From assembly GCA_900466475.1 (NCBI GenBank), contig UBMI01000007.1, positions 80,569 through 144,568 of the forward strand: a stretch of 64,000 bases of DNA, in the 5' to 3' direction. The stretch is from Hyphomicrobiales bacterium (lineage in GTDB: Bacteria; Pseudomonadota; Alphaproteobacteria; Rhizobiales; Rhizobiaceae). Position numbers and translations under genes: made by a program. Shown here one piece after another: positions 7,254 through 41,596 of the stretch (positions are counted from its first letter, which is position 1; each line of letters starts with the position of its first letter). The notes under the pieces are model-generated. The model had not been told where the DNA came from. It made no database searches and worked only from the letters and a program-made list of their open reading frames with translations.

Positions 7254-7366
7254 GCGATATTCCCGTAGCGGGGATATTCAGCTGCCTGTCCGGACATTGG
7301 TTCCAAGGGCGGGAACTCTGTCATCGCTGCTTGCACCAACAGCGCGGTGCCAATGGGTTCCAGCCT

Positions 7367-8599
7367 TCAGCCTGAGCATCGGCGGCGGTCGAGGAACAGC
7401 AGCCAGGCCGTCCCGGCAAGCCCAGAGAAAGCGCCGACGACAGCCGTGCCGGAATAGCTGGTGATAGCGGTTCCGGCCGCAAAGAGCACGGCGCTCAGTC
7501 CGGCGCTGAGGAAGATGTTGACCGAGATCAGCGCGCTGCCAAGACCTGGCCGCTCAGCTATCAGATCCTGAAGATAGGTGATCGGGACCGAGATCAGCGA
7601 GGCTGCGCCTATGCCGCTGATGAGGGTGAGGGCGTAGACGTGCCAGGGTTGATCGGCAAAGGCCAGGAGCATCAGATAGATCGCATAGATCAATGCTCCA
7701 ACGGCAAGAGCTGTGAGCTGGCTGACAATGCGCAGCATGCGTGACCATACGATAATGAAGACCACTTCCAGGAGTGCGACGATCCCCACGAGAATGCCGA
7801 TATCGGCGACCGTTCCGTGGGCGGCACCGGTGACGACGAGGGGAAATATTGCGTCGTTGACATGCAGCGTGCTGCTGATCAGCGCGATCGCCATTACCCG
7901 ACTGAATATCTTCGGAGAGATCACCTGGCCGAGAGCGGCGAGATAGGAGAGATGGTGCGTGGCAGCTCGGTCGGTGCCGCTTTGCCGCGGCAGCAGGATA
8001 CCGATGAGGCCGACACAGACCAGACAGGATATGCAGGCAAACAGATAGGCCGGCAACATGGACGGCGAGGAGGAGAGCAGAACGCCCGTAAACCCCGGAA
8101 CGAGCACCCAGGAAAGCGAAATCATCGCCCGTGTCCCGGAATTGACGGTCGCAATCTCGCCAGGCGCCATTCCTCTGGCTGCCGCGCGCACATTGGCAAA
8201 GAGCAACGAGTTCAGCGATCCATAGACCGGCAGCAGCAGGAGAGCGCTGAGAACAAAGATTTCCCGGGTCGGGAAAAAATAGACCGCACCATAACCGAGA
8301 ATGCCGAATGTCGCGGCAACGAGCATCATCGTGCGGTATTCGCCGAGCCGGTCGGCAAGATTGCCGAAAAGAATGCTGACGATCACGTTGACGGCCGCTG
8401 CGGCAAAAATCAGCGCGGAGTAGACCCCGTTCGACAGGCCGAGTTCAACGATACCGACCACGGATCGATAAGGGTTTGTCGTCGCGCCGGCAAAACCGAA
8501 CGTGAAGATGGCAATCATGCTCACCCGGATTGCAGGATTGCGGAAGACATCGGGGATCAGGCGGTTCATCGTCATCATCAGCAATGGTTTGGAGCGCAT
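7367..8599 (-). CDS. MFS transporter, sugar-efflux-like
   Basis: The 410-residue product has twelve predicted membrane spans and the MFS loop signature between helices 2 and 3 (LFGNLADRLGEYR). Total length and layout fit DHA1-type/sugar-efflux permeases. The first segment starts near 'RVSMIAIFTFGFAGATTNPY'. Start codons at 8599, 8578, 8575 or 8569 are possible; none has a strong ribosome site, and the last gives MNRLIPDV, a plausible true start. It follows the GH20 gene on the same strand after about 205 nt, so it may be the last gene of the RidA-RpiR-SDR-GH20 unit or be separate. The substrate cannot be read from sequence; a sugar or sugar derivative fits the context. Confidence 0.75.
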   Translation of the reverse strand: MRSKPLLMMTMNRLIPDVFRNPAIRVSMIAIFTFGFAGATTNPYRSVVGIVELGLSNGVYSALIFAAAAVNVIVSILFGNLADRLGEYRTMMLVAATFGILGYGAVYFFPTREIFVLSALLLLPVYGSLNSLLFANVRAAARGMAPGEIATVNSGTRAMISLSWVLVPGFTGVLLSSSPSMLPAYLFACISCLVCVGLIGILLPRQSGTDRAATHHLSYLAALGQVISPKIFSRVMAIALISSTLHVNDAIFPLVVTGAAHGTVADIGILVGIVALLEVVFIIVWSRMLRIVSQLTALAVGALIYAIYLMLLAFADQPWHVYALTLISGIGAASLISVPITYLQDLIAERPGLGSALISVNIFLSAGLSAVLFAAGTAITSYSGTAVVGAFSGLAGTAWLLFLDRRRCSG

Positions 8600-25713: not shown

Positions 25714-26736
25714 CTATTCAAAGAGAATGAGGCTTGCCGGAGTCGGCGGTAACGGCCTGACCTTGACGCCGGTAAGGCCGGCCAGTCTTGCCATCTCAAT
25801 AAGCTCACTTTGCGTATAGGCCTGGCCCGCCGGCGTGCCGGCAAGCATCTCCCAGGAGAAGGCCGCGGGAAAAGGCGGCGACACGCCGTCTTCGTTCGGC
25901 ACGAAATCGACCGCGACGATTCGGCCTTGTTCTGCAAGGCTCGCAATGATCCTTCGCAGCAGTTGGGCGCAGGTCGGCAAATCGAAGTGGTGCAGAAAGT
26001 TTGGAAGCATAACGAGATCATAGTCCGTGCCCCACTCCACATCGAAGGCACTGCCGGCGATCGTCCGGTACCGGTCAGCCACGCCAGCTTTTTGCGCATT
26101 CTGCTGCGACAGTTCCAATACGGCGGCCCAGTCGACGGCCACGATCTCCGCCGACGGAATGGCCTTCGCAATTTCGATGCCGAAAACGCCTGGACCTGCA
26201 GCGATATCCAACACCTTTTTGGGAGACCTCGGCCAGCCGGAGATTTCGCCAGCCAGCACTTTGGCGCTTAGCCCAGTAAATGAGCCCATGCCGCGGGCGA
26301 ACTTCACCCAGACAGGGTTATCTGCCGACATGTTCGCAAGCCCGGTCGAACCGCCGTTTCGCACGATGGCGGCTGGATCGCGCAGAAAATTATCCAGTAC
26401 TTCGGGCGCGGCGACGAACTCGACCGCAGAGCCCATATAGGCAGGCGAATTGCGATCGAGGAACATCTTGGTCGACGGCGTCATTCGGTACTGTCCGCTC
26501 TCCTTTGTCAGGAAGCCATGAACCACAAGATAGTCGCAGAGGATGCGCACCCCGCGCTCCGAGGCGCCTATTGCCGACGCCAGAAGCGCCGCCGTCTTGC
26601 CCTCGCCGATATGCGTAAAGAGATCGAGCTCGATGGCCGCCCTGATCGCTGCCGTCTTTCGGCAGGCAAACAGTGCCTCGACCACGAGCTCGGGCGATAC
26701 TGCGCCAGCATGGGCGTCCGCAACATTTGTTTCCAT
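25714..26736 (-). CDS. SAM-dependent O-methyltransferase (PF00891-like)
   Basis: The 340-residue protein has an N-terminal winged-helix dimerisation domain (about 15-100; 'ALFACRKTAAIRAAIELDLF', 'GVRILCDYLVVHGFLTKE') and a C-terminal Rossmann-type methyltransferase domain with SAM motif I VLDIAAGPGVFGIEIAKAIP and acidic motif II IVAVDW. The segment LPNFLHHFDLPTC supplies the His-rich catalytic region of this O-methyltransferase group. A G-rich ribosome site (GGGGGATTCC) precedes the ATG. It is a single gene with convergent neighbour; a small-molecule hydroxyl substrate is likely but unknown. Confidence 0.85.
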   Translation of the reverse strand: METNVADAHAGAVSPELVVEALFACRKTAAIRAAIELDLFTHIGEGKTAALLASAIGASERGVRILCDYLVVHGFLTKESGQYRMTPSTKMFLDRNSPAYMGSAVEFVAAPEVLDNFLRDPAAIVRNGGSTGLANMSADNPVWVKFARGMGSFTGLSAKVLAGEISGWPRSPKKVLDIAAGPGVFGIEIAKAIPSAEIVAVDWAAVLELSQQNAQKAGVADRYRTIAGSAFDVEWGTDYDLVMLPNFLHHFDLPTCAQLLRRIIASLAEQGRIVAVDFVPNEDGVSPPFPAAFSWEMLAGTPAGQAYTQSELIEMARLAGLTGVKVRPLPPTPASLILFE

Positions 26737-27720
26737 GGAATCCCCCGAGCCTCGAGTGATCTTGTCTCGTGATGCCAGCCGCAGAAATTATGCGTATATT
26801 CGCGCCTTCTACAATACATATTGCACTAACCCTATCGGGTGACTGCGCGCTCCATCTTGCACGGACAACTCCCCGAGCGTCGGGTCGGCTGTCTCGCCTC
26901 AAAGAACTAGCTAGAGACACGAAATAGGGTCTCTCCGGCCCCGCTATGGAGTTCGGCAACCTCGATCGGTGCCGCCAGCTTTCCGCTCGTTAACGACGAC
27001 AATTCCCTAGGCAGCGGTGGCGACAAACATTGCAACGGCGGCAGGCCGTCTCCGAGGCCCGCGTTGCGCGCTCGCGTGTGACACGGAGTTCTTGAACCGG
27101 TACGACGCAGCTTGTGGCTGTGGAGAACCCTTCGTTGGATGAAAGGCCATGCGACCCAACCGCATTTTGTTTCGGCGCCCTCTCCCCGCCCCTCCCAAGA
27201 TCTAGATGCCGCGCCACAAGTGCGTAGGCAGACCGCTCTGTTACAGCGAACGAGACCGATTTTTGAAGGGCATCGTTACTGACACTTTCGCGCAATAGCT
27301 AAAAAGCCTCTCCAATCAAACAGTAACGCGAAGAGGCTATCGGACTGATGACACGTCATCATTCAGAATGCCGCTTCGGCATCATCTGCATGTCTGCTCC
27401 GACAAGCGGACAAACGACAATGAAGCGTATCGGAACATTCGGGAGCGCCTGGAGGGTGACCGAAGGCGTACAACATTCCTTTGACGCTGCTTTGACGCCA
27501 GGGTGCTACGGCCGGTCTGCGAAGTTACGCGGAGGGATTTCAGCCAGTTATGCTTCAGTTCAATCATCGCCAGATCACCCGTATACCTTTCGAAATGCCG
27601 ATTTCTCTTGTCGGTTGCTTGCCAGACGCTTCAGTTGTGACAGAGTGGACTCCGGATGCTAGATCTTCGGGCTGCCACACGAGCGTACCGGAGCCAACGG
27701 GGGCGGGGCCGGTGGATCGC
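26737..27720. other. Long gap without a supported gene
   Basis: Nearly 1 kb between the methyltransferase and the SARP-type regulator. Small open frames in it lack ribosome sites and recognisable content. AGCCTCT (27305-27311) and AGAGGCT (27332-27338) form an inverted repeat; read on the minus strand the second arm is followed by TTTTT, as in an intrinsic terminator, but no minus-strand gene precedes it. Codon-like periodicity is not obvious, so decayed DNA or an unrecognised small RNA are possible. The promoter of the regulator should lie near 27500-27700. Confidence 0.35.
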
Positions 27721-29505
27721 ATGAACAAGGAGCAAAATCCGTTTCGGATGTTCCTGCTCGGGCCATTTGCCCTGGTGGACGCCGCAGGACGGTCGGTTAC
27801 TCCGAAATCCAAGAAAGCCCAGGCCCTTTTGGCAATGCTTGCGTTGTCAGCCCGTGGTTCGCGCTCGAGGATCTGGCTCAGAGACAAACTGTGGAGTGAT
27901 CGTTCCGACGACCAGGCCGCAGCGAGTCTGCGTCAGGCCCTTCTGGACATCCACAAGACTCTGGGACCGGCTCGTAATCTCCTGGTAGCCGACAAGAATA
28001 CCGTTTGGCTGGATATGGACCGGCTTGTCCTTGACACCGACGTGTTGGTTCGGACGGAGCGATCGGCTGATCAAATCACCGACGAATTGCTCGAAGGCAT
28101 CGACATCCGCGATCCGGAATTCGAGGACTGGCTAACGCTTGAACGGCAGAACTGGTATCGCCGCCTCGATGAAGGCCAGGTCCATGATGTATTCGAACCG
28201 CGTCAAGAACCGAACCGTGATATCGCCAGACATTCCACGCTGCTGCCGCTTACAGCATCCCGGGATGCGCCAAGACAGGGCAAAGCCGCGGAGACTGGCG
28301 GCCACGAAACATATCGCCGACGAGGCGACGGTGGCTGGCGATGGGTCATGGCTCTTCAGTCCCCCATCGTGATAGGTGCAGGAGATGGCGGACAAATTGC
28401 TGCCACGCGGTTCCAGAATCTCATTGCAAAAGCCGTCACCGATGGGCTCGCCATTGGCGTCACCGACCTCTCTTTTACTTTGCCGGATATTGAGGAGAGC
28501 GAAGGGCAAATCAGCCTTCCGATGTCCCTTCAGCTTCGGTTGACGTTTGACGGTAGCATGGTGCTCGTCGAACTGGTGATGAAGCACCTGATCAACAACC
28601 GTATTCATTGGCTCGGCAGTCAGGCAATGAGCCGCACGCAATTCGAGCGGGGCGAGTTCGGCATCGCCGCTGCACTGATCAGCCAGGCCGTCGATCAACT
28701 GGCCTATTTCCAGGAGACCCAGTCAAACGACAATCGACTGTCGCAGGATGGCCTCCTGATCGACGCCGTCAATGCGATCTTTCGCCTGTCACGTGACGAC
28801 CTCGCTAACGCCGAGCAACGCCTCGAAGAACAGATCCAGCATGAACCACGGTCATCGACCTTTGCGTGGCTGTCCTTCATCCGAACTTTCCAGGTCGGCC
28901 AACGGTTCAACGCGCTTGATGCGCATCTGATCGAGGAAGCCCAGTCCTACGCGCGCAAGGCGTTGGAAATAGATCCGCACAATTCCGTATCGCTCGCGCT
29001 TGTCGGCCATGTCCACTCGTTCCTTTTCGGCGAGTATGATTACGCAGCCAACTTGTTCGAAAAATCGATCCGTCTGAACCCGGCCCTGCCGCTCAGTTGG
29101 GATCTCTACGCGATGCTCCACTGCTATGCAGGCCAGCCGGACAAGGCCATGGCTATGGCGCGTTGGGTGCAAGAACTCGGCGTCTACAGCCCACACAAAT
29201 ACTACTTTGACACGACGAAATGCATAGCAGCAGCACTTGCCGGTGATCACGCAGCAGCCATAGCTGCCGGCGAAGAGGCCTTGCGGGCACGGCCGAAGTT
29301 CAACAGCCTGCTACGCTACCTCGCCTCAAGTCATGCGCACCTCGATGATCTCGGCGGCGCACGCCACTATCTGCAGCGACTTGCGGCAGTCGAGGACGGC
29401 TTCTCCATCAACGCCTTCCGAGCTAGCGGCTATCCGCTCCTTAATACAGGCGGCGGCCAGATCTTGATCGACGGTTTGGTGAAGGCCGGCGCCAAGCTGC
29501 GCTGA
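27721..29505 (+). CDS. SARP-type transcriptional regulator with C-terminal TPR domain
   Basis: Residues 1-100 form an OmpR-type winged helix (FRMFLLGPFALVDAAGRSVT, then 'KSKKAQALLAMLALS', 'ASLRQALLDIHKTLG'). A bacterial-activation-like segment follows to about 150 (DPEFEDWLTLERQNWYRRLD). A central region (about 200-330) resembles the FlgO/TolB-like part of rhizobial TPR regulators. The C-terminal third is TPR repeats (ARKALEIDPHNSVSLALVGH, FEKSIRLNPALPLSWDLYAM). No membrane segment is seen, so it should be a cytoplasmic DNA-binding activator. ATG 27721 begins directly at the winged helix; the frame is open to 27550 and no start has a strong ribosome site. It precedes the haloperoxidase-like gene by 41 nt and probably controls this cluster. 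Confidence 0.82.
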   Translation: MNKEQNPFRMFLLGPFALVDAAGRSVTPKSKKAQALLAMLALSARGSRSRIWLRDKLWSDRSDDQAAASLRQALLDIHKTLGPARNLLVADKNTVWLDMDRLVLDTDVLVRTERSADQITDELLEGIDIRDPEFEDWLTLERQNWYRRLDEGQVHDVFEPRQEPNRDIARHSTLLPLTASRDAPRQGKAAETGGHETYRRRGDGGWRWVMALQSPIVIGAGDGGQIAATRFQNLIAKAVTDGLAIGVTDLSFTLPDIEESEGQISLPMSLQLRLTFDGSMVLVELVMKHLINNRIHWLGSQAMSRTQFERGEFGIAAALISQAVDQLAYFQETQSNDNRLSQDGLLIDAVNAIFRLSRDDLANAEQRLEEQIQHEPRSSTFAWLSFIRTFQVGQRFNALDAHLIEEAQSYARKALEIDPHNSVSLALVGHVHSFLFGEYDYAANLFEKSIRLNPALPLSWDLYAMLHCYAGQPDKAMAMARWVQELGVYSPHKYYFDTTKCIAAALAGDHAAAIAAGEEALRARPKFNSLLRYLASSHAHLDDLGGARHYLQRLAAVEDGFSINAFRASGYPLLNTGGGQILIDGLVKAGAKLR

Positions 29506-29546
29506 ACCCCGGATAATTTTTCTGAACTTTGCACAAGGAGGCTGCA

Positions 29547-30575
29547 ATGGAAGCGGAAATAACCCCAGATACACAATCAAAAATTGTCTTATTCCTCAAT
29601 CACTACAAATTCAAGATTGAGCCGGATGCGGTTCTTCCATGTGAACCGAGGGAGGACGAAGGGACGGCTCCTGTCGCTGGTGTACCGCCGATTGCCCCGA
29701 CAGCAACCTCCGAAACTGCACTTACGCTCAACACGGGACAGGAGGAATCGCCCGATGCAGGTCCCATGATGGCGACGATGGCCGCCGCCTCGGTCCTCAA
29801 CAAGAGCGTGGCGAACAAGTCCGTGCTCAACAAGGCGTCGCTGAACAAAAACAAGAATAAAAATAAAAATAAAAATAAGAACAAGTCGACGATGGATGGC
29901 GCCAGCCTCGGCGTGTCGCAGCTTATCCCCGCCTTCGAATTGCGGCGGCTGCACCAGCAACCGTCACGCAACGCCTATACCGCAGCGCGACGTTTTACGT
30001 GGGAGATGCTGGATATATTGCCGCCGCCCGGCCCGGATTATACCCGTCTCGAAACGACGGTGCTGCTCTCGATGCAGCGACGCGACCGCGAACGTGTGCG
30101 GCGACTGCCCGACATCCAGCTCGAGTCGACAATCTCGGTCTCGGAATTCACGCGAGCATTGTACATCGAGGATCTTGGCGGTTACGAGCAAACGGAAGGA
30201 CTTTTCCAGGCGATCCTGACGGCCTGCGAATATGTCGGGCTGATTTACAAGAGCAAATTCAACCGACAGCGGCCAAATCAGTTCGAGCCCATGCTGCGGC
30301 CATTGCTGGCCGTGCCGGTGCATGAATCATATCCCAGCAACCACGCCTTCCAGTGCTTTTCGATCGCTTTCGCGTTCTCGACGATCCTACCGGAACATCC
30401 GGCCACCGACGAGCTTGCCCGCATTGCCCAGAACGTCGCAGAGAACCGCGAATGGGCTGGTCTCCATTATCCGAGTGACACGCAGGCCGGTCGCGATCTC
30501 GCCCGCCGCTTCGCTCCCTACCTCCACGATGCCTTCGGTCCTTTGTTCCAGGCCGTGCACCACGAATGGGTCTGA
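29547..30575 (+). CDS. PAP2/vanadium-haloperoxidase-fold protein with Asn-Lys repeat
   Basis: The C-terminal 220 residues carry the three phosphatase/haloperoxidase motifs: KSKFNRQRP (K-x6-RP, near 235), PSNHAF (PSGH-like with Asn for Gly, near 263) and NREWAGLHYPSD (R-x5-H-x3-D, near 300-311). These bind phosphate or vanadate. No membrane spans are seen, which favours a soluble haloperoxidase-like enzyme over a lipid phosphatase. The first 125 residues are unlike either family: low complexity, with NKSV/NKAS units followed by seven Asn-Lys pairs (DNA about 29845-29886). ATG 29547 has AAGGAGG just upstream. It lies between the SARP regulator and the subtilase, cotranscribed with both. Function is inferred: oxidative halogenation or phosphoryl transfer. 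Confidence 0.8.
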   Translation: MEAEITPDTQSKIVLFLNHYKFKIEPDAVLPCEPREDEGTAPVAGVPPIAPTATSETALTLNTGQEESPDAGPMMATMAAASVLNKSVANKSVLNKASLNKNKNKNKNKNKNKSTMDGASLGVSQLIPAFELRRLHQQPSRNAYTAARRFTWEMLDILPPPGPDYTRLETTVLLSMQRRDRERVRRLPDIQLESTISVSEFTRALYIEDLGGYEQTEGLFQAILTACEYVGLIYKSKFNRQRPNQFEPMLRPLLAVPVHESYPSNHAFQCFSIAFAFSTILPEHPATDELARIAQNVAENREWAGLHYPSDTQAGRDLARRFAPYLHDAFGPLFQAVHHEWV

Positions 30576-30605
30576 ATTCGCCAGCTGCTCAACAGGGGTA
30601 AAACC

Positions 30606-32300
30606 ATGACGGATCAATCGCAAATGCCCGAGCTCACGCCGATAAACTACTATTATCTCTGGCACTTGACCGCGCTTGGCGTGGTCGACGCCGAATATGG
30701 ATCGCCTCCGCTTGTTCCACCCATGCCCGATGAGAGCGCGGCACGCGCGCTGCCCGATCCCATCATCACCGGCACGGTCTGGGATGATATCGCCTCTGCC
30801 GGCCCGTTGCGACCCGCTCGCGTTGCTTTGATCGATGTGGGTGTATCTGCGGATCATCCCAATCTTGCGACACGGCTCGACCGGGAGGCGTCAATCGACT
30901 TGACGACGCATCGCTACGGCGCCCGCGTTCTCGAAATTCTCGATACGACCAGCTCATTTGACCGAGAAGAAAAGCATGCCTTCTTTGCCGGACTCAATAT
31001 CGCTCCGCTCGGAAATATCGGCCTTTCAAACGACGATGGAGATTATCTCAGTGATCTCGTTGCCGAATATGGCGCATCGGAGGGCGTTTTGCGGCGGCTC
31101 TACAATCCGGAATCGCTTTTTGCATCGCATGGTACCTGCTGTGCGGGGCTGATCGTCGGCGAACCCGCCGTCGTTTCGGAAGAAGGCACGCCCGCTCTTC
31201 CGCCGGAAGGAGCTTTTTACGGCGATGGCGAGGAGTTGCGCACGAGCGGCAACCGCAATGTCATCCCTTATTTCGGGGTTGACCCTTTCTCGAGGCTCAT
31301 CTCGATCAGAACGTCCTTCGAAGACGATGTCAGGCAGTTCATTGCTGCCTTTCTCTATGCCTATCATCAGAAGGCGGACGTGATCGTCCTACCGCGTGGC
31401 CTGCCGGACCCGATACGCGGTGTGGTCGATCCAAAGAACGAGTTGAAGGCCGACCTGGAACTCTGGAAGAACCAGGATGCCGCCAATCTCTTCACGCGCA
31501 TTGCCTTCGCCGACCAGGGTGCGCCCGAACTGGAGCCAAAGGCATCGCAGAAAGGCTCCAATCCCGACCGCCCTTGGCACATCCTCAAACAGCTCATCCT
31601 CGCTATCAGTCGCCAGATCCCTATCGTCTGTGCCGCAGGAAACAGTGCGGAAAGTCAGCTGATCTACCCGGCAAATCTCGCCGCCGACAATAACGGCATC
31701 ATCGCCGTGGGGGCCGTTACTGTGGAAGGTTTCCGTTCGGGCTACAGCAATTATGGCGAAGGATTGACGGTGGTCTGCCCCTCTAACGACGGTGAGGTCT
31801 TCAACCGGCATCAGTTGCGCCTCGACCGGCTTTCTCCGTTTGCCGCACAGCACGACTACAACACCCCTCGGAGCCGGGAATACTACTATTCACACTTCTC
31901 GCTGCTGACGACGGACCTGTCGGGAATTTTTGGCTATGATCAAGGCTCGGATCCATGGTCGGCCATCGTGCCCTTCGGAACCAACCCGGGCATCGGGGGT
32001 GGATACTACACGAGCTTCGGCGGCACTTCCGGCGCGTCGGCACAAGTGGGCGGGCTCTGCGCGCTGATACAGCGGGCTTACAAGAGCCGCCACAACGCTG
32101 CTGACCGCCTCTCGGGGCCTCGTGTGAAGTCCATTCTGAAAGCAGCATCCCGCCTGGATGCCGTTGTCGCGCCCGGAACAAGAAAACTAACGGCAGATTG
32201 CATGAACGCCGAAGGTGAAGACGCCATCGATATGGCCTTTTTCTTCGGGTCGGGTCTGCCGAATGCGCGGACCGCGGTACAGTCAGCCCTCGCCATCTGA
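30606..32300 (+). CDS. Subtilisin-like serine peptidase (S8), cytoplasmic type
   Basis: The 564-residue protein has the S8 triad: Asp in RVALIDVGVSADHP (about residue 77), His in LFASHGTCCAGLIVGE (about 174), the oxyanion Asn in VCAAGNSAES and Ser in FGGTSGASAQVGGL (about 473). About 100 residues separate Asp and His, longer than in classic subtilisins. There is no signal peptide or obvious propeptide, so it likely acts in the cytoplasm. Spacing to the haloperoxidase-like gene is 30 nt with a ribosome site. A strong terminator follows at 32328. Within this cluster a processing role, such as cutting a modified precursor, is the simplest idea, but this is inference. Confidence 0.92.
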   Translation: MTDQSQMPELTPINYYYLWHLTALGVVDAEYGSPPLVPPMPDESAARALPDPIITGTVWDDIASAGPLRPARVALIDVGVSADHPNLATRLDREASIDLTTHRYGARVLEILDTTSSFDREEKHAFFAGLNIAPLGNIGLSNDDGDYLSDLVAEYGASEGVLRRLYNPESLFASHGTCCAGLIVGEPAVVSEEGTPALPPEGAFYGDGEELRTSGNRNVIPYFGVDPFSRLISIRTSFEDDVRQFIAAFLYAYHQKADVIVLPRGLPDPIRGVVDPKNELKADLELWKNQDAANLFTRIAFADQGAPELEPKASQKGSNPDRPWHILKQLILAISRQIPIVCAAGNSAESQLIYPANLAADNNGIIAVGAVTVEGFRSGYSNYGEGLTVVCPSNDGEVFNRHQLRLDRLSPFAAQHDYNTPRSREYYYSHFSLLTTDLSGIFGYDQGSDPWSAIVPFGTNPGIGGGYYTSFGGTSGASAQVGGLCALIQRAYKSRHNAADRLSGPRVKSILKAASRLDAVVAPGTRKLTADCMNAEGEDAIDMAFFFGSGLPNARTAVQSALAI

Positions 32301-32327
32301 ATCCCGGTATGTGACCTTCACAAATCC

Positions 32328-32362
32328 AAGCCCCCTTTATCACGGGGGCTTTCTCTTTGTTT
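32328..32362 (+). terminator. Rho-independent terminator after the subtilase gene
   Basis: AAGCCCCC - TTTATCAC - GGGGGCTT is a perfect 8-bp GC-rich stem followed by TTCTCTTTGTTT. It ends the regulator-haloperoxidase-subtilase transcript 27 nt after the subtilase stop, so the genes that follow need their own promoter. Confidence 0.88.
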
Positions 32363-32490
32363 ACGCGCTTTTTACGGATTTTTAACGCCGAACTGGCGGG
32401 CGGATGACGCCCTTGGGCAATAGTGCCTCACAGAAAACGACGCTCACCGCTCCGATGGGACAAAGCCGGCCCGACAAGGAGCATTTTCGC

Positions 32491-32507
32491 CCAAGATGAA
32501 ATCTTGG
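32491..32507. promoter_or_regulatory. Perfect palindrome upstream of the HEXXH gene
   Basis: CCAAGAT-GAA-ATCTTGG is a perfect 7-bp inverted repeat with a 3-base centre, 33 nt before the HEXXH gene start and after the terminator. It could be an operator for a dimeric regulator or a 5'-leader hairpin. The partner protein is unknown. Confidence 0.45.
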
Positions 32508-32539
32508 TCTGGCTGAAGCTAAACCCAAGGAGGCTGTCA

Positions 32540-33985
32540 ATGTCCGCGTCCCGCATTCAACAAGTGGCAGATGAGGCGCGCCATGTGCTCAAGGCCAATC
32601 CCCTGATGGCAAGCACCGTCTCCTTGCGACGCATCGCAACGCGCAATCTTTCGAAGCGACGCTTCCGATATGGTCGCGCGCTCGCGGCAGCGTCGAAGCT
32701 CGCCGGCTGCTCGACTGGTACAGAGGCGCTGTCAGCCTATTTCCCCGGCCTGACGGATGGCGGATACACTCGCTTGCTGGAGCTTCCAGCAGCCATTGCC
32801 GGACCGGTCAATGCCGACCCCTATCGTTCATCCGTGCTCGCAGCCTGGATGGGTGGGCTCACACGAAGTGTGGAATGGCAGGCCGACGGCCCCGATGCCC
32901 GGGTCGTCGGCGACTATCTGCAGACGGATATGATCGCATCGGATCTTGAACTCGAACGTCAGCCGGCGCGCCGGCTCTCCTGTGGCATCGGCCTTGTCCC
33001 CTTGGAAAGTCCGGCACGAAGCCGCGTGATGCAATCCCTCCTCCACCAATGCATGCAGGACGATCCAGGTCTCGACCGCATCGTCACCGGCGAGGAGGAG
33101 TTGGACCAAATCGCCGGCCATATGGAGAGGGTCTTCGCGCTGATCGCGAAAATGGACATGTACGGGCATCAGCGTCTGATCGACAGCCTGCATACGCTTT
33201 ACGTTGGCGTGCGGCGCGAACCGGCCTGTTCGGTATCGAGTTCGACTGAATTGCCCGGTAGCGTCATCATCGCCATTTCCAGAGAACGTTTGCGGGACGG
33301 TGATCATGCCGAGACCGCGGCCCAATTGCTTCACGAGGCCGGGCATGTCCTGCTAGGGCTTTATACGGCCTCGGCGGCAGCATGCCTGCCTGACGAATTC
33401 GAGTATGTTTCCCCGTACAAGAACGACCTACAGACGCTCGAAAGCATCCTGCATACGGCCTACACCATTCCCTGGGAGTGCGCCTTCCGCATGGCATGTC
33501 TTTCCGCCGAAGCGGATCCTGAGCGCCGCGCCCGAAAGGCTGCATCCATAATAGCCTATGCCGCGCGGCAAGTCCCGCTCATCGATATCGCTCGAAATGG
33601 AATAGAGCGTCTCGGCGGCGATGTCCTCCTCGACCTCCCAGACATCGCCGCCATACCTTCGTGGAGCGGCCGCATCCAGTTTCTCGTCAACAGACTGCTT
33701 GCAGAAGAGCCCATAGCGCACCGCCAAGCCCACTTTGCAGAACGTCAGCAAATTCTCGATCGCCAAGCCTGGGACATCGGACAGATGCTCTTGCGCGGCA
33801 AGGAGCCGATTGACCCTCGAATGGGCCGGCGACAGATCGACGACAGCGGCGACAATGTCTTCCTCTGGTACGACGGCAAATTCCATGTGGTTCCCAAAGC
33901 GGCAGACCATGCGATGGGCAAGAATTGCAGTCCTCGCGCCGAGACGATCCACGCAACTGCGAAAAGCGAGATGGAGGTGATGTGA
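32540..33985 (+). CDS. HEXXH protein resembling RiPP peptide beta-hydroxylases
   Basis: The 481-residue protein has HEAGH (residues about 265-269) in AQLLHEAGHVLLGLYTASAA, then SPYKNDLQTLESILHTAYTI with a third His near residue 305. Spacing and wording (HExxH, about 30 residues, SP.K.D.R/Q.L...LH..Y) match the 'HEXXH motif-containing peptide modification' family, shown in some cases to be alpha-ketoglutarate iron enzymes that beta-hydroxylate peptides. The rest (helical N-terminus, C-terminal DNVFLWYDGKFHVV) has no other match I recognise. AAGGAGG precedes ATG 32540; the frame extends to 32423. Its stop overlaps the ThiF-like start (TGATG). A zincin peptidase is the alternative reading. Confidence 0.72.
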   Translation: MSASRIQQVADEARHVLKANPLMASTVSLRRIATRNLSKRRFRYGRALAAASKLAGCSTGTEALSAYFPGLTDGGYTRLLELPAAIAGPVNADPYRSSVLAAWMGGLTRSVEWQADGPDARVVGDYLQTDMIASDLELERQPARRLSCGIGLVPLESPARSRVMQSLLHQCMQDDPGLDRIVTGEEELDQIAGHMERVFALIAKMDMYGHQRLIDSLHTLYVGVRREPACSVSSSTELPGSVIIAISRERLRDGDHAETAAQLLHEAGHVLLGLYTASAAACLPDEFEYVSPYKNDLQTLESILHTAYTIPWECAFRMACLSAEADPERRARKAASIIAYAARQVPLIDIARNGIERLGGDVLLDLPDIAAIPSWSGRIQFLVNRLLAEEPIAHRQAHFAERQQILDRQAWDIGQMLLRGKEPIDPRMGRRQIDDSGDNVFLWYDGKFHVVPKAADHAMGKNCSPRAETIHATAKSEMEVM

Positions 33986-35268
33986 TGGCCCATCATCGGT
34001 CCAAACAGCTGCAAGCGGTTGCCACGGCGCGCATCGATTTCCCCAACCTCTTCGCCCACAGTGTTGGGCGGAGCGGCAGAGGGGCTCTGTTTCCCGGCAT
34101 TAGTGCTGATGCTGCCGAGCAACAGGGCCCCAATGTCATCAAGCCTGCATTTGCCGTCTCGCCGAACCCTTCCGACATGAGGGCGCAGGATGAACATGTC
34201 CTGGCCACAGACGATCATCTTGGTTCCCTCCCGGCGCCTCGCTGCCTACAGCAGATTTGCGACATCGACTTCGTCATCGTCGGATGCGGCGGCTTGGGCT
34301 CCCAGATTGCTATCCTGCTTGCGACCCTTGGCGCGCATCGTTTCCTTCTCATGGATGCCGATCGTATCGATGAGATCAACGTGGGCCATCTCCCGTGGGC
34401 GAGCCGGGATGATCTCGGCTGGCTGAAGACGGAAAAGTTGTCGAGCTATCTGGCTGCACGCTTTTCTGCCAACGTATTCGCGCTGCCGGAATTTGCGCAA
34501 GGGACCGCGGCACTCCGGTTGATCGCGGACTACGCGCAGAATCCGTTCATCGTTCTCGCGGGCGACGATCCGCGTCAGGCCGAAGAAGTCCTGACGGCCG
34601 CCCTCGCATCAACAGCCGGGCTGCCACCCCATTTACATGTCGACTGCCCCGACACCCGTTGCAAACCGGGCCCCTCGATCGCTCTGTCAGCGGATGCAGG
34701 CCCGGTCTGCGATTGCGACGCCCGTGTCGCAATCGGGCACCGCTCTTTTGCCATGCGGGCAGCGGCCAGTAACACATCCGTCGCTCGCCTTGTCGTCTCG
34801 GCGATTGTTCAGGAATGTCTTCCGAAACACGCCCCGCCGCGTGGACGCAGTTGGATATTGGACTTCAAAGGCTCGCAGTGCGAGCTCCGTTCGCTTTCCA
34901 GGCGCCTCGCATCCGCAAGTCCTTCTTCCACCACGAGAGACACTGATATGGATTATGCCGAACGCTCGAAAGCCGCCCTTCCGGCTGCGACAGGTTCGCA
35001 AGCAGCGTCGCTCGCGCAGCACTCAGTCATAGGCTACGCCAGCGAGACTGCCGGAAAGGACGAGGAGCTGACAATATCAGAAGTTCTTCGTGATCCGCTG
35101 ATCGCTGCCGTGATGCGCGCCGATGGCGTGACGTCAGAAGAATTCAAGCGCCTCCTTGAGACGGTGGCTCGCCGGCTGAAAACCAATCTGGCCAACTCTT
35201 TCGACACAGATGGGAAGAAACAGGCCGTCAGAACGCCTGCGCCGCCCAATCGAGGGGATCATATGTGA
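33985..35268 (+). CDS. E1/ThiF-like adenylating enzyme
   Basis: The 427-residue protein holds a Rossmann ATP-binding domain starting near residue 92: DIDFVIVGCGGLGSQIAILL, then HRFLLMDADRIDEINVGHLP and LGWLKTEKLSSYLAAR, matching the GxGGLGS...D.D.....N....K pattern of ThiF/MoeB/E1 enzymes. These adenylate a protein or peptide C-terminus. The usual Arg after the Asn (N..RQ) is absent (NVGHLPW). Cys pairs CPDTRCKPG and CDCDA could bind zinc or form thioesters. The N-terminal 90 residues and C-terminal 130 are unique. Start overlaps the HEXXH stop by 1 nt; DUF982 follows by 1 nt. No ubiquitin-like or JAB partner is adjacent, which favours peptide modification (inference). Confidence 0.8.
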   Translation: MAHHRSKQLQAVATARIDFPNLFAHSVGRSGRGALFPGISADAAEQQGPNVIKPAFAVSPNPSDMRAQDEHVLATDDHLGSLPAPRCLQQICDIDFVIVGCGGLGSQIAILLATLGAHRFLLMDADRIDEINVGHLPWASRDDLGWLKTEKLSSYLAARFSANVFALPEFAQGTAALRLIADYAQNPFIVLAGDDPRQAEEVLTAALASTAGLPPHLHVDCPDTRCKPGPSIALSADAGPVCDCDARVAIGHRSFAMRAAASNTSVARLVVSAIVQECLPKHAPPRGRSWILDFKGSQCELRSLSRRLASASPSSTTRDTDMDYAERSKAALPAATGSQAASLAQHSVIGYASETAGKDEELTISEVLRDPLIAAVMRADGVTSEEFKRLLETVARRLKTNLANSFDTDGKKQAVRTPAPPNRGDHM

Positions 35269-35269
35269 C

Positions 35270-35827
35270 ATGTTTGCCGAAACGCCGCCGAAGTTGGTTG
35301 ACGAGCCTGTGTCGTCAATCCCGGTCCCAAAGCAGGGGCCCGGCGCTGGCGTTGGCTTTCCAACGGAGTTCAGGGCAATGAGATGCGATATATCAAGAAG
35401 GTTTCCGACGATAGTTCTTGTATCTGCACAAGGCGAAGATCGTAAAGTGATCCGTACCGCACACGAGGCTGCACAATTGTTGCTGAAGGATTGGCCCATC
35501 GACGATGGTGAGGAATTCTTTGCGGCGGTGAGAATCTGTCTGAGGGTGCTGACCGGACACGCCGAACCCGATGCCGTGCATGAGGCGATCATTCGCGCAG
35601 CACATGAAGCGGGTATTACAGCGGTCACGACCGATCCACACCTGGGTATCTTCAGGATCTATCCTGGCAGCGAGGCCTGCAGCGCAAGCGCCTATACCAA
35701 TCCCGCTGCCATTGATCCGCTTCGCCTATCGCCATCAGCGCGCCGGAGGCGGCAACGAAAATGGTCGGGGCGATCCAGAAAGGCATCAAGTGCGAATGTC
35801 GAGAAGGCGTCGGGGTGCTTCAAGTAG
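35270..35827 (+). CDS. DUF982-domain protein
   Basis: Residues about 37-115 match the rhizobial DUF982 pattern: RRFPTIVLVSAQGEDRKVIR, 'AHEAAQLLLKDWPIDDGEEF' and a C-terminal helix EAIIRAAHEAGI. The domain usually stands alone at about 80 residues and has no known activity. Here it has a 36-residue Pro-rich leader and a basic C-terminal tail of about 60 residues (SARRRRQRKWSGRSRKASS). That tail has irregular composition and may reflect a lost stop or frameshift. ATG 35270 lies 1 nt after the ThiF-like stop, suggesting translational coupling. Role in the cluster unknown. Confidence 0.68.
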   Translation: MFAETPPKLVDEPVSSIPVPKQGPGAGVGFPTEFRAMRCDISRRFPTIVLVSAQGEDRKVIRTAHEAAQLLLKDWPIDDGEEFFAAVRICLRVLTGHAEPDAVHEAIIRAAHEAGITAVTTDPHLGIFRIYPGSEACSASAYTNPAAIDPLRLSPSARRRRQRKWSGRSRKASSANVEKASGCFK

Positions 35828-35949
35828 GGGCAAGCCGTTTGCGCTGAAGGCGAACCGAACGGACCTCGGCCTGCGCAACGGCCGATCAACCCAATCTGAG
35901 GCTGGCGTGTCCATGTAACCGTCAGCGATCGAATAGCTAAGGGACCGTC

Positions 35950-36174
35950 ATGTCGAACAAGGAAGCAGATCGAAGACTGTTCGATCGGATCTGGGCTCTT
36001 GGGGCCGAGGCAGTGAGAGACAAGCGCGTTACCGCGCTGACCTATGTCACGCTCAGTACGCCTAGCCTGGAAGAGTACCAGAATAGCCGAGGCGCGCGGA
36101 TGTCCGACTTGATCAAGGTTGTTCAGCTCGGGATACTTCACCTTCGCGAAAAAGGCGAATTTAATCAATCTTGA
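35950..36174 (+). CDS. Small hypothetical protein (74 aa)
   Basis: The frame has a good ribosome site (AAGGGAC, 7-8 nt before ATG) and codes for a charged, probably helical protein: MSNKEADRRLFDRIWALGAE, later SLEEYQNSRGARMSDLIKVV. No known domain is recognised. It is separated from DUF982 by 122 nt on the same strand and could be cotranscribed with it. It may be part of the modification cluster or an independent small gene. Confidence 0.5.
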   Translation: MSNKEADRRLFDRIWALGAEAVRDKRVTALTYVTLSTPSLEEYQNSRGARMSDLIKVVQLGILHLREKGEFNQS

Positions 36175-36569: not shown

Positions 36570-37571
36570 GTGAAAAAAAGCGACCAAACTTCTGAATTTT
36601 TGATGATTTCCGCATCGCACCCATTAGGCATCACGCTGGACGACGCCAAAATAATCTATAATTTGCCGTTTAACGATCTGCTCTTCCGTGCCCAAACCAT
36701 TCACCGCGCACATTTCGACCCCAACGCCGTGCAGATGAGCCGTCTTTTGTCGATCAAGACGGGTGGATGCGCTGAGGATTGCGGGTATTGCAGTCAGTCC
36801 GCCCACTACCCGACCGGCCTGAAGGCCTCGAAGCTGATGGAAGTCGAGCGTGTTCTCACCGAGGCGCGCAAAGCCAAGGATGCGGGGGCGACCCGCTACT
36901 GTATGGGGGCGGCCTGGCGCAGCCCGAAGGACCGCGACATGGACACGCTGGTCGCCATGGTCGAGGGTGTGAAAGCGCTCGGTATGGAAAGCTGCATGAC
37001 GCTCGGCATGTTGACTGAGCGTCAGGCAGGCGAACTCGCGGAAGCTGGCCTCGACTACTACAACCATAACATCGACACGTCCGAGCGCTTCTATTCGGAG
37101 ATCATCACCACCCGAAGCTTTGAAGATCGGCTCGATACGCTGGAAACGGTGCGCATGGCCGGCATCAAGGTGTGTGCCGGGGGGATCCTGGGCATGGGCG
37201 AGACGGTCGATGACCGGATCTCCATGCTGCTGACGCTGGCAAACCTGCCCGTGCCGCCGGAAAGCGTGCCGATCAACCAGCTCATCCCCATTCCCGGTTC
37301 GAAGCTGGCAGACGCGGAACCTGTCGATCCGATCGATTTCGTGCGAACGATCGCACTCGCGCGCATCCTGATGCCAGCCTCGCATCTACGCCTTTCGGCC
37401 GGACGCACCGAGATGAGCGACGAGATGCAGGCGCTCTGTTTCTTCGCGGGCGCCAACTCCATCTTTGTTGGCGACACGCTGCTGACCGCAGACAATCCCG
37501 GCGACGATCACGACACGGCGCTCTTCCGCCGTCTCGGCCTTTCTCCGATGCCGCTGGAGCCGGCGGTGTGA
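36570..37571 (+). CDS. bioB: Biotin synthase
   Basis: A radical-SAM enzyme of 333 residues that inserts sulfur into dethiobiotin, the last step of biotin synthesis. The 4Fe-4S site is seen in [20 protein letters not shown] (C-x3-C-x2-C, about residues 67-74). The further conserved residues for the auxiliary cluster are in [17 protein letters not shown] and [11 protein letters not shown] (Arg). The GTG start follows GGA/CGGAA; ATG 36603 is an internal alternative. It opens the bio operon and its stop overlaps the bioF start by 4 nt. A BioR-type box precedes it. Confidence 0.97.
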
Positions 37572-38710
37572 CGGCGATACTTTCGGACTATACCGCCACG
37601 CTGGAGGGCCTGCGGCGCAAGGCGCGGCTGCGCAGCCTGGCGCCGCAGCGTGGCATGGACTTTACCTCGAACGATTTTCTTGCACTTGCGGGCGCCCCGC
37701 GCCTCAAGGCGGCGATCATGGCGGCGATGGAAAGGGGCGTTCCGGCGGGCGCAGGCGGATCGCGTCTGCTGCGTGGCAACCATTCCGAACACGAGGCGCT
37801 GGAAGTGGAAGCCGCCGAGTTTTTCGGCGCGGAACGTGTGCTTTATTTCGGCAGCGGCTACGCCGCCAATTCAGCACTTTTCTCGACCTTGCCACGGCGC
37901 GAGGATCTGATTGTGCACGATGCGCTCATTCATGCGAGCGCCCATGAAGGCGTTGCGGCAAGCAAGGCAGCGTCCTTCAGCGCCGAACACAACGATGCAA
38001 ACGCCTTCGATGAGGCGATCCGAAACTGGCGCCGGAAGGGCGGTAGGGGGCGTCCCTGGATTGCGGTCGAGAGCCTCTATTCCATGGACGGCGACAGAGC
38101 GCCGCTCGCCGCCCTCGCCGATATTGCCGACCGCCACGAGGGCTTTCTGGTGATCGACGAGGCCCATGCGACCGGAGTTTTCGGCAGAAACGGCAGAGGA
38201 CTGGCGACGGGGTTGGAAGGCCGAGACAACGTGCTTGCCCTGCATACTTGCGGCAAGGCGCTGGGCGTTTCCGGAGCCCTGCTTGCGATCCCCTGCGCAC
38301 TTGCCGACTACCTCGTCAATCGTGCCCGCGCCTTCATCTATTCCACCGCACCCTCGCCTCTCATGGCGGCAGGCGTGCGTGAGGCCTTGCGCATGCTGGA
38401 TGACGAACCCGAGCGCCGCGAGGCCCTGGAACGCTTGGTCGGTTTTGTCGGCCATGGATTGAGGAGCCGATTCGGCAAGGAGCCGAGCGGCTCGCAGATC
38501 CAGCCGGTCGTTATCGGCGACAACGCGCGTGCGCTACGAATTGCCGAAACTCTTCAGGCCCAAGGGTTCGACATCCGCGCGATCCGTCCGCCAACCGTGC
38601 CGGAAGGTACGGCGCGCCTGCGCCTCTCGATTACGCTCAATGTGGATCAGGAGCAGATTGCGAGCATGCTGGATTGCCTTGCCGACGCCATGGAGAAACA
38701 CAGGAAATGA
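37568..38710 (+). CDS. bioF: 8-amino-7-oxononanoate synthase
   Basis: A PLP enzyme (380 residues) that condenses pimeloyl thioester with L-alanine. Typical features: '[17 protein letters not shown]', [35 protein letters not shown], the Asp/His of [12 protein letters not shown] and the PLP lysine in [13 protein letters not shown] (about residue 226). GTG 37568 overlaps the bioB stop by 4 nt; the gene overlaps bioD by 4 nt. In this operon type its acyl substrate comes from BioZ rather than BioC/BioH. Confidence 0.96.
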
Positions 38711-39345
38711 CCGCCCGTTTCGTGATAACCGGCACGGATACCGGGATCGGCAAAACCGTGTTCGCCGCGGCGCTAGCGGGTGCACTCAACGCCCGATACT
38801 GGAAGCCCGTGCAATCCGGACTGGAGGACGAGACCGACAGCGACACCGTCGTCCGGCTGAGCGGCCTGCCGTCCGACCATATCCTGCCGGAGACCTATCG
38901 GCTTTCCACCCCGGTCTCGCCCCATCTTTCGGCGCGCCTCGATGGTGTCGAGATAGACGCTGCCAGGCTTGAGCCGCCGGAATGCGACGGTCCGTTGATC
39001 ATCGAGGGGGCTGGTGGCCTGCTGGTCCCACTCACGAAAGAAACGGTCTTTGCCGATGTCTTCGCCCGCTGGCGCATTCCCGTCATTCTCTGTGCGCGAA
39101 CGTCGCTCGGCACCATCAATCATACGCTCCTGTCCATCGAGGCGCTGCGCAGCCGTGACATTCCCATTATTGGTGTCGCTTTCATCGGACCGGAAAATGC
39201 CGACAGCCAGGCGACCATCGCCACTATCGGGCAAGTGAAGGCGCTGGGGCGATTGCCGCTGCTGGAAAACCTGACTGCTGAAACACTGCGCCGCGCCTTT
39301 CACGAGCACTTCGACATTGCCGCCCGGATGGAGGCACACGCGTGA
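38707..39345 (+). CDS. bioD: Dethiobiotin synthetase
   Basis: The 212-residue ATP-dependent carboxylase closes the ureido ring of dethiobiotin. It opens with the P-loop [16 protein letters not shown], has [17 protein letters not shown] with the substrate-binding Lys, and '[16 protein letters not shown]' with the conserved Glu-Gly-Ala-Gly-Gly. ATG 38707 overlaps the bioF stop (ATGA); the frame extends to 38674. Its stop overlaps the bioA start. Confidence 0.95.
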
Positions 39346-40613
39346 CCCCCTCGCCCGTCTGGCATCCCTTCACACAGCATGCCCTGGAACCGCCGATGAA
39401 GCGCATCGTCGCGACCGAAGGCGCATATCTGTTCGACGAGGACGGCAACCGCATACTCGACGCGATCTCGTCATGGTGGGTGATCACCCATGGCCATCGC
39501 CATCCCGCCATCATGGCAGGAATCCGCGAGGCGACAGAAGCCTACGACCAGATCATCTTCGCCGAATTTACCCATGAACCCGCAGAACTTCTCGCTGAAC
39601 GCCTGCTCGCCTTCGCACCCTCTGGATTGAAACACGTCTTCTATTCGGACAGCGGGTCGACGGCCGTCGAGGTGGCGATCAAGATGGCGCTCGGCACGTT
39701 CCACAATCGCGGCATTGCGCGTGATCGCATCGTCGTGATGGAACATGGCTACCATGGCGACACGATCGGCGCGATGTCCGCCGGAGAGCGCGGCGTGTTC
39801 AACGCCCCCTTCGAGCCGCTGCTCTTCGGCGTCGACCGCCTCCCCTTTCCCGAACCCGGTCGGGAGCAGAAAACGCTCGATGCGTTCGAAACCATCTGCC
39901 GTTCGGGAAAAGTCGCCGCTATCCTGATCGAACCGTTGGTGCTCGGCGCCGGCGGGATGAAATTCTACGGGAGCGCGGTCCTCTCCGCCTTGAAGGAAAT
40001 CGCTGGCCGGCACAGCTGCCTGTTCATTGCCGATGAGGTCATGACCGGCTGGGGTCGCACCGGAACGCGTTTTGCCTGCGAACAGGCGGGCGTGGCGCCC
40101 GATATCCTCTGCACATCGAAGGGTCTGACCGGAGGCGCCCTGCCGCTGGCAGCCACCCTTTGCACCGGCGAGATTTTCGAGGCTCATCTGTCTCGCGACC
40201 GGCGCAAGACCTTTTTCCATTCGAGCTCCTATACCGCTAACGCAATCGCCTGTGCGGCGGCTGTCGCCAATCTGAAGGTCTGGCACGATGAACCGGTGGA
40301 AACCCGGATTACCGAACTTGCTGTGCTGCACGCCAAGCATCTGCAGCGCTTCCAGACCGACGCGAGATTTGTAAACGTCAGGCAATGCGGGACGATCGCC
40401 GCCCTTGATCTTGCCGTGCCGTCCGGCGGCTATCTCGCCGAAGTGGGGCCGCGCCTGCGCAGGCTGTTTCGCGAACGCGGGCTGCTTCTGCGCCCGCTCG
40501 GAAACGTCATCTATCTGATGCCACCCTATTGCACGAGCGCCGAGGATATCGCTGTCGCCTATGACGCGATCGATGAAGTCGCCTCGCTCGTTCTCGAGGA
40601 AACTGTGTCGTGA
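39342..40613 (+). CDS. bioA: Adenosylmethionine-8-amino-7-oxononanoate aminotransferase
   Basis: A class III aminotransferase (423 residues) that uses SAM as amino donor to make 7,8-diaminononanoate. Recognisable parts: [20 protein letters not shown], '[14 protein letters not shown]', [43 protein letters not shown] (PLP Asp) and the lysine in [14 protein letters not shown]. The GTG start overlaps bioD by 4 nt, and the stop overlaps bioZ by 4 nt. Confidence 0.96.
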
Positions 40614-41596
40614 CGCCCCTCTCCTCCCGGCTCGCCGGATTCGGTCACGCAGTTCCATCCCGCATTGTCCACAATGCGGAAATCGAAAGCCGGCTCGGCC
40701 TTGAGGAGGGCTGGATCGAAAGGCGCACAGGCATCCGATCCCGCCATTGGGCAACCGATGGGGATACATTGAGCGGCCTTGCCGCCGAAGCCGGGAAAAT
40801 GGCCCTTGAGGATGCTGCGATTGCGCCGGGTGAGATCGCCATGATCCTGCTCGCCACCTCGACGCCGGACCATCTCTTGCCGCCCTCGGCGCCGCTGCTG
40901 GCACACAAGCTCGGTTTGAAAAATTCCGGAGCCATCGATCTTGCCGGAGCCTGCTCCGGCTTTCTCTACGCGCTGACGCTGGCAGACGGCTTCGTGCGAG
41001 CACATGGCCGGGCGGTGCTGGTCGTGGCCGCCAATATCCTCAGCCGCCGCATCAACCCGGCGGAACGCGCCAGCGCCGTTCTGTTTGCCGATGGCGCCGG
41101 CGCGGTCGTGCTTGTCCCATGCAGCAACGGTCACAGCGGCCTCAAGGCAGCCGTCCTGGCTTCGGATGGGAGTGGCTATGATCTCATCACCATACCGTCC
41201 GGCGGCAGTAACAGGCCCTTCTCTCCCGAAACCGCAGCAGACCAGGTGCTGATGACAATGCGCGATGGGCGCGAGGTCTTCTCGCGTGCTGTCGAATTGA
41301 TGACACGCACCTCGCGCCAGGCGATCAACGAAGCCGCCGCAATGATATCCACCATCGATCGCTTCATTCCGCACCAGGCCAATGCCCGCCTCTGCGACGC
41401 GGTTCGCCACAATCTCGAATTGGAAGAAAGCAAACTTGTGAGCACGATCGCGGAATTCGGCAACTCTTCGGCTGCGACCATTCCGCTCTCCCTTTCAGTT
41501 GAAAATCGCCGCAAACCATTCAAACCCGGAGAGCGCCTTCTCATGGCCGCCGCCGGTGCGGGCATGGCGGGTGGGGCTGTCGTCCTTGCGGTCTGA
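40610..41596 (+). CDS. bioZ: BioZ, FabH-like ketoacyl synthase for biotin precursor
   Basis: A KAS III-type enzyme (328 residues) that starts the pimeloyl chain in rhizobia, Brucella and relatives by condensing a glutaryl thioester with malonyl-ACP. The Cys-His-Asn triad is visible: [28 protein letters not shown] and [14 protein letters not shown]. Close similarity to FabH is expected; the position at the end of bioBFDA distinguishes it. GTG 40610 overlaps the bioA stop. Its presence explains why no bioC/bioH is found here. Confidence 0.94.

Follow-up and report, generated by a model that had tools for sequence, protein, structure and literature searches.

According to a review (PMC12250964), the microcin C pathway uses MccB to adenylate its peptide at the C-terminal Asn, and MccD and MccE to attach an aminopropyl group that stems from S-adenosylmethionine. 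A second group of described enzymes consists of the alpha-ketoglutarate (aKG)-HExxH beta-hydroxylases ChlH, BpmH, PflC and PosC, of which PflC and PosC hydroxylate Gln strings and, in a variant, Asn, according to PMC12636437. Relatives of both kinds of enzyme, an HExxH protein and a ThiF/MccB-like E1, are encoded side by side in a 64,000-nucleotide stretch of contig UBMI01000007.1 from a Hyphomicrobiales bacterium (GenBank assembly GCA_900466475.1), called the window here, where they follow genes for a SARP/TPR regulator, a PAP2-fold phosphatase-like protein and an S8 subtilase. On balance, we favor a reading in which the locus is a SARP-controlled cassette of two units, where the second unit (HExxH-E1) is the leftover of a module for ribosomally synthesized and post-translationally modified peptides (RiPPs) like that of Rhizobium sp. 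BK602, and the regulator-PAP2-S8 trio carries the selected function. A literature search of open-licence papers returned no paper describing this gene set or the trio.

The HExxH protein of the window scores 72.7 bits with TIGR04267, the aKG-HExxH peptide beta-hydroxylase model, whose curated cut-off is 40, and its motif HEAGH (residues 265–269) is intact. The resemblance to RiPP beta-hydroxylases proposed in the initial annotation is borne out by this score, which also rules out an ordinary peptidase. Compared with ChlH, BpmH, PflC and PosC, the window protein is alike in its TIGR04267 score and intact motif, but no MNIO partner is found among the scanned window genes, the neighbors are E1, S8 and PAP2 proteins, and the motif is broken in most of the copies examined. 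A Protein Data Bank sequence search with the HExxH protein gave no relative below an E value of 0.8. The adjacent protein, first described as E1/ThiF-like, does match ThiF (3.8e-12). Open reading frame (ORF) calls and profile searches of the window place seven genes or ORFs between 27550 and 36174, every one on the forward strand, so that the genes are real and co-oriented as originally described. The features are listed below with the ratio of nonsynonymous to synonymous substitution rates (dN/dS), which was calculated for 15 pairs, some of them near dS saturation.

27480–27497, forward strand: operator-like 11-nt direct repeat TTTGACG-N4-TTTGACG, 5' of the regulator (pattern scan)
27550–29505, forward strand: SARP/TPR regulator, 651 aa (TPR matches; relatives align from residue 1; dN/dS 0.05–0.24)
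29547–30575, forward strand: PAP2-fold phosphatase-like protein, 342 aa (profile, solved relatives, active-site motifs; dN/dS 0.06–0.19)
29844–29885, forward strand: (Asn-Lys)7 tract ahead of the PAP2 domain, in mixed codons (codon and repeat inspection)
30606–32300, forward strand: S8 subtilase, 564 aa (profile, alignment; dN/dS 0.07–0.17)
32328–32351, forward strand: hairpin terminator closing unit 1 (terminator scan; similar hairpin in relatives)
32359–32387, forward strand: operator-like TTTnACG repeats with 11-nt spacing, before unit 2 (pattern scan)
32540–33985, forward strand: HExxH protein of the aKG-HExxH peptide beta-hydroxylase family (TIGR04267; HEAGH at 33332–33346; dN/dS 0.15–0.33)
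33985–35268, forward strand: divergent ThiF/MccB-like E1 that is extended by an additional C-terminal segment (profiles, alignments; E1-core dN/dS about 0.5 versus R. leguminosarum)
35378–35827, forward strand: DUF982 protein, ORF open from 35270 (profile, B11 annotation; membership doubtful)
35950–36174, forward strand: 74-aa ORF (also in B11 and L092; membership doubtful)

A fuller cluster is present in Rhizobium sp. BK602 (locus L010). Its order is SARP, PAP2, S8, a radical SAM/SPASM protein, two precursor-like peptides and HExxH, followed by an AdoMet decarboxylase-like protein, a methyltransferase, peptides of 89 and 76 aa, E1, a double methyltransferase and a GNAT acetyltransferase. Against the NHLP-clan Os1348 model, the precursor-like twins (110 aa and a copy, 68.5% identical) score weakly and below cut-off (E 0.018 and 0.0012). 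Likewise below cut-off are the matches of the radical SAM protein to RiPP maturases (geopeptide maturase, 4e-43) and of the first methyltransferase to the daptide methyltransferase (7.8e-30). The 89- and 76-aa peptides lie directly upstream of E1, and both end in DIGDLVAN. The best solved relative of this E1 is MccB of microcin C (1.9e-12), followed by PaaA of pantocin (5e-7), and a tblastn search with it further finds ThiF/MccB proteins on Helicobacter and E. coli plasmids.

BK602 therefore resembles the microcin C clusters in its MccB-like E1 with Asn-ending peptides directly upstream, and in the methyltransferases, AdoMet decarboxylase-like protein and GNAT protein nearby. It differs in its peptide lengths (76 and 89 aa versus 7), in the radical SAM and HExxH partners, and in that no exporter is seen among the ORFs listed downstream. 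By analogy, the AdoMet decarboxylase beside the methyltransferases could reach the same end, an aminopropyl group, by another route. Such a full cluster would yield two products, one from a peptide family that HExxH and the radical SAM enzyme cross-link or hydroxylate and one from a family that E1 adenylates at the C-terminal Asn, with the subtilase as a plausible leader protease. The BK602 locus (L010, 12803–20792; also L065) is a candidate for an extended microcin-C-like pathway joined to a radical SAM/HExxH peptide pathway, and it offers a concrete candidate for an extended Asn-ending peptide of this kind made alongside a radical SAM/HExxH-modified one. The window itself differs from the microcin C clusters in having a divergent E1 and no matching Asn-ending peptide (very short ORFs were not searched).

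Because of the gene content of BK602 with its candidate precursors, the HExxH/E1 half appears to derive from a RiPP-type cluster, and the ancestry of unit 2 in a BK602-like cluster is probable. The window has no counterpart of the BK602 radical SAM protein, of either kind of peptide, of the AdoMet decarboxylase-like protein or of the second methyltransferase; the first methyltransferase matches only an O-methyltransferase outside the cluster (25714–26736, reverse strand, upstream). Among the other loci examined, no match was obtained to the radical SAM gene, to any of the peptides, to the AdoMet decarboxylase or to the first methyltransferase, with the exception of a 29-residue match in L056 that probably falls in sequence preceding the radical SAM start. 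In an alignment, the stretch between S8 and HExxH in the window pairs with that between S8 and the radical SAM gene in BK602, and the pairing takes in the repeats. Two Neorhizobium loci (L012 and L057) retain part of the double methyltransferase, and the Neorhizobium E1 starts with the beginning of the BK602 first methyltransferase fused to E1 residue 104 (scores 46–55). In the null set, 600 N-termini reach a score of 18, except for one of 74 that was taken as that methyltransferase itself. For some copies of the Rhizobium-type E1, the comparison is suggestive of a start derived from that of the AdoMet decarboxylase. If the direction of change is read as loss, shortening of a BK602-like ancestor by deletion has good support in Neorhizobium and is likely in the remaining loci.

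The HExxH motif is intact in seven of 45 distinct copies, namely the window, Sinorhizobium sp. B11, BK602, L092, L094, L097 and L098. The remaining 38 read HEAGN (17 copies), REAGH (seven), HQAGH (six, which still hold both His), HEAAN (two), REVGH (two), and HAAGN, REVGQ, GEAGH and REASH (one each). These numbers come from 47 listed sequences minus the duplicates L108 and L062, with the weak or partial L004 and L049/L050 left out, and the loci are a hand-picked mix of one-per-species genomes and plasmids, not a random sample.

A live RiPP pathway, in which HExxH, E1 and S8 of the window act on a precursor encoded elsewhere or too short to recognize, would agree with the intact HEAGH here and in the six other copies, with an HExxH dN/dS below 0.34 and with the retained operator-like repeat before HExxH. 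Microcin C precursors can have 7 residues (PMC6495379), and a precursor could therefore be overlooked. We regard such a pathway as unlikely, since no relative of BK602's peptides and no recognizable precursor occurs in the window (very short ORFs were not systematically searched), the one further exact match to the operator pattern genome-wide sits between TypA-like and GNAT-like ORFs, the motif is broken in most HExxH copies, and E1 residues as well as the enzymes flanking E1 in BK602 have been lost. The idea of peptide maturation in the initial annotation thus agrees with the ancestry of the genes, but present-day production of a modified peptide by the window is not supported.

Structures of ThiF and MccB show an ATP-site Arg and paired zinc cysteines. 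The window E1 has DEINVGHL where BK602 reads DESNLNRL, and it contains no CxxC pair; it looks degenerate, is evolving quickly and is probably decaying. Its core dN/dS is 0.48–0.51 against the R. leguminosarum type and rises to 0.71 in Rhizobium pairs, within an overall range of 0.10–0.71. In R. leguminosarum records the extra C-terminal segment is a separate small ORF (motif DPLIA.VMRADGV.SEEFKRLLE), so that the window E1 is a fusion. A defense system was considered and set aside, as PADLOC gave no match except weak E1-E2 ThiF matches to E1.

Several observations weigh against the reading favored here. Purifying selection on HExxH (dN/dS 0.15–0.33) persists even with a broken motif, unlike what is expected of a plain remnant, and a structural or repurposed role is therefore possible. 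The E1 core dN/dS is also low within Neorhizobium (0.10–0.14), and on both counts "remnant" may have to be replaced by "repurposed." No fuller cluster besides that of BK602 was found, so that expansion there is possible instead, and the two BK602 peptide families gave no tblastn match in the plasmid collection. The first 20 residues of Rhizobium-type E1 proteins score 23–38 with the AdoMet decarboxylase start, where the null has a 99th percentile of 28 and a maximum of 39; the window E1 scores 23, which is not above the null. For the regulator, the profile scan matched TPR models only, with no HTH, BTAD or other DNA-binding domain model. The AlphaFold2 model of HExxH and the structure model of PAP2 are too poor to use, with mean predicted local distance difference test scores of 39.4 and 41.3, respectively.

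The assignment of the regulator as a SARP comes from the annotation of the near-identical record of Sinorhizobium sp. B11 together with the operator-like repeats; its profile match is to TPR_17 (1e-6). Streptomyces SARP proteins bind direct repeats phased at 11 nt. In the 64-kb window, the pattern TTTnACG-N4-TTTnACG gave three overlapping or exact matches (at most one mismatch) against 0.10 expected, confined to the regions 5' of the regulator (27480) and 5' of HExxH (32359–32387). The 7.2-Mb genome holds three exact matches, two of them at this locus. This genome-wide count alone is no excess because a reversed control pattern gives two, and the third match, between the TypA-like and GNAT-like ORFs, was taken as chance. 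Across 31 rhizobial loci (624 kb), 59 of 63 exact matches fall at the two sites. The repeat is exact before unit 2 in 31/31 loci and before the regulator in 28/30 (L052, without a regulator, is not counted), the exceptions being BK602 and L056. The 11-nt direct repeats are a likely operator of the SARP for both units.

The hairpin at 32328–32351 after S8 is also visible in the relatives displayed, although the terminator scan of the window, with 13 found versus 8.8 ± 3.1 in shuffles, is weak evidence taken alone. With this conserved hairpin and the second operator-like repeat, the locus is, as judged from its sequence, divided into two units, the hairpin-closed SARP-PAP2-S8 and then HExxH-E1. 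The SARP would bind the repeats before both units and switch them on together, and the two units quite probably form one putative regulon under it. The activator placed in front of the genes by the initial annotation does precede the set, with a candidate operator before both units, but its start is more likely at 27550 than at 27721, because 16 of 18 matches align from residue 1 and GGAGGG precedes 27550. Of the translational coupling described, the TGATG overlap of HExxH and E1 (33983–33987) is present in the sequence; the 1-nt gap between E1 and DUF982 (35269) is also there, but may be accidental, as the DUF982 start at 35270 is doubtful. The annotation of B11 starts DUF982 at the methionine equivalent to 35378, and the preceding stretch is out of register in B11.

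Conserved co-occurrence in other genomes, put forward at the outset as support for one system, was found. Of 19 long loci, 18 carry all five genes in order, as do all 12 of a further group, one of which (L095) has a partial HExxH. The same arrangement is seen in Rhizobium, Neorhizobium and Sinorhizobium amid differing surroundings. Exceptions among the long loci are L052, without the regulator and part of PAP2, and L051 and L057, with genes in two frames. In L057, which is Neorhizobium galegae VafX2, the regulator and E1 matches each lie in two frames, and the annotation splits the HExxH gene into fragments. HExxH matches were obtained in 4/297 family genomes (one marginal only), in 11/57 genomes of the genus of G047 (one partial only) and in 26/147 genomes of the genus of BK602; none came from 146 genomes in the genus of G073, an empty outcome that carries no weight. 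A genome-contig scan patterned on the low-complexity tail matched at least three loci, which is of little use for judging distribution. Plasmid records with matches number 68 for HExxH, 103 for PAP2 (many distant) and 71 for S8.

It is improbable that an unrelated HExxH/E1 pair merely landed behind a regulator-phosphatase-protease operon and was carried along. The separate transcription units would fit such chance neighbors, as would the SARP-PAP2-S8 trio where it stands by itself, with neither HExxH nor E1 matched, in Aminobacter (L011), Phyllobacterium (L014), Aliiroseovarius (L015), Palleronia (L016), L032 and L034; yet the same operator-like repeat precedes both units, and three genera share the gene order in surroundings that differ. 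The same observations divide the claim of one common pathway, which is favored by the shared candidate operator and kept order but not by the trio that stands without HExxH or E1. Judged by sequence comparison, the trio is an older, strongly conserved module compared with the HExxH/E1 half.

The PAP2 protein matches its profile at 8.5e-8 and retains all active-site motifs, KxxxxxxRP, PSNH and NREWAGLHYPSD. Its six solved relatives by sequence at E ≤ 0.01 are all acid phosphatases, the nearest being 7f17/7f18, with 7f17 as the best (5.4e-17). The PAP2 fold of the initial annotation is therefore kept, whereas a vanadium haloperoxidase is not favored, none being present among these six. Unlike the acid phosphatases, the window protein is repeat-tailed and apparently cytoplasmic, and it has a TPR regulator and a protease as partners in the locus. 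A conserved N-terminal segment of the rhizobial PAP2 proteins, FLNxYKFKxEPDxVLPC, also occurs in Aminobacter and Phyllobacterium. The S8 protein matches Peptidase_S8 (5.4e-17), with D77, H175 and S475 unvaried in eight aligned relatives, and no signal peptide was seen by eye, in agreement with the cytoplasmic subtilase first proposed. In this it resembles PatA/PatG, the cytoplasmic RiPP leader proteases, but its score with the PatA model TIGR03895 is weak (20.2 bits), far under the 421-bit cut-off, and mycosin scores higher (46.1 bits).

Perfect repeats of two or three residues are found in 14 of 15 apparently cytoplasmic PAP2 copies and in 0/3 secreted-looking ones (by eye), although L021 has an (SL)n end. 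In a control, 4/586 ORFs carried such tails; two were PAP2 proteins that had passed the filter, and one was antisense to a PAP2 gene. The repeat differs by lineage, as (NK)n, (NR)n, (MT)n, (AGN)n, (TGN)n or (TSN)n, and the PAP2 proteins of L036 and L110–L113 start with one of the last three. Codons are mixed in the tracts where printed, the (NK)n tracts being shown only partly, so that the repeats appear to be maintained as protein sequence and not by fresh DNA slippage. One could imagine a protein-modifying system in which the (NK)n tail is the substrate, hydroxylated on Asn by HExxH and clipped by S8. The Gln-string and variant Asn hydroxylation by PflC and PosC (PMC12636437), the mixed-codon tail that is Asn-rich in rhizobial and several distant copies, and an operator common to all parts are in line with it. 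We consider it very improbable, as the tail occurs where HExxH is absent or broken and distant copies have Asn-free tails such as (MT)n.

Beyond the rhizobia, a TPR regulator stands ahead of such PAP2 proteins in other Alphaproteobacteria, and a protease, S8 or A4, usually comes after them. A cyclase-TPR protein, PAP2 and a Peptidase_A4 protein occur together in distant Alphaproteobacteria (L036, L111 and L113), the cyclase-TPR identity having been profile-tested in L036 and L113; no protease was identified next to PAP2 in L110, L112, L114 or L033. Phaeobacter PAP2 matches were dropped as generic PAP2 (32% over 41%; the query was flawed). An animal haem peroxidase (Pfam) adjoins the trio in L034 (5642–7180) and L016 (11436–13151). 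Near the trio of L032, a 711-aa protein (5452–7587) is vanadium haloperoxidase-like by eye, and behind the Aliiroseovarius trio an 85-aa ORF (L015, 11839–12096) resembles a stand-alone subtilase propeptide by eye; neither has a Pfam match. The trio could be a branch of a widespread alphaproteobacterial system of TPR regulator, repeat-tailed cytoplasmic PAP2 and S8 or A4 (eqolisin) protease, whose rhizobial branch took up a RiPP module and later saw it eroded; we rate this slightly short of even. There, the regulator may have a SARP-like or nucleotide-cyclase front end, the protease family may swap while its role is kept, and a haem peroxidase may sometimes adjoin. If it is true that these parts work as one system, the repeat-tailed phosphatase with interchangeable proteases is a new recurring module.

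For the cassette as we favor it, operator binding and catalytic roles are predicted. With the precursors and half of the enzymes gone, the window HExxH may hydroxylate an unlinked or host substrate, and PAP2 and S8 would be the selected output; that the trio now provides a phosphatase and a protease inside the cell, under inducible control, is a tentative suggestion. The comparison ties a conserved, unstudied rhizobial gene set to RiPP chemistry, and it would give a view of a peptide-modification cluster that sheds precursors and catalytic residues but retains a core of regulator, phosphatase and protease.

The six or seven member genes counted originally are not upheld, as membership of DUF982 and the 74-aa ORF is doubtful. 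The DUF982 profile match (2.8e-12) makes a weak case, with 27 occurrences in this genome, and the 74-aa ORF is present in B11 and L092 and absent from the other loci compared. Plasmid p1 of Sinorhizobium sp. B11 is the closest named record, with identical flanking genes on both sides, an O-methyltransferase and aldo/keto reductase upstream and biotin genes downstream. In R. leguminosarum records, dehydrogenase and threonate-catabolism genes adjoin the gene set instead. Downstream in the window, a biotin-synthesis gene run extends over 36570–41596 on the forward strand, with names taken from the B11 annotation.

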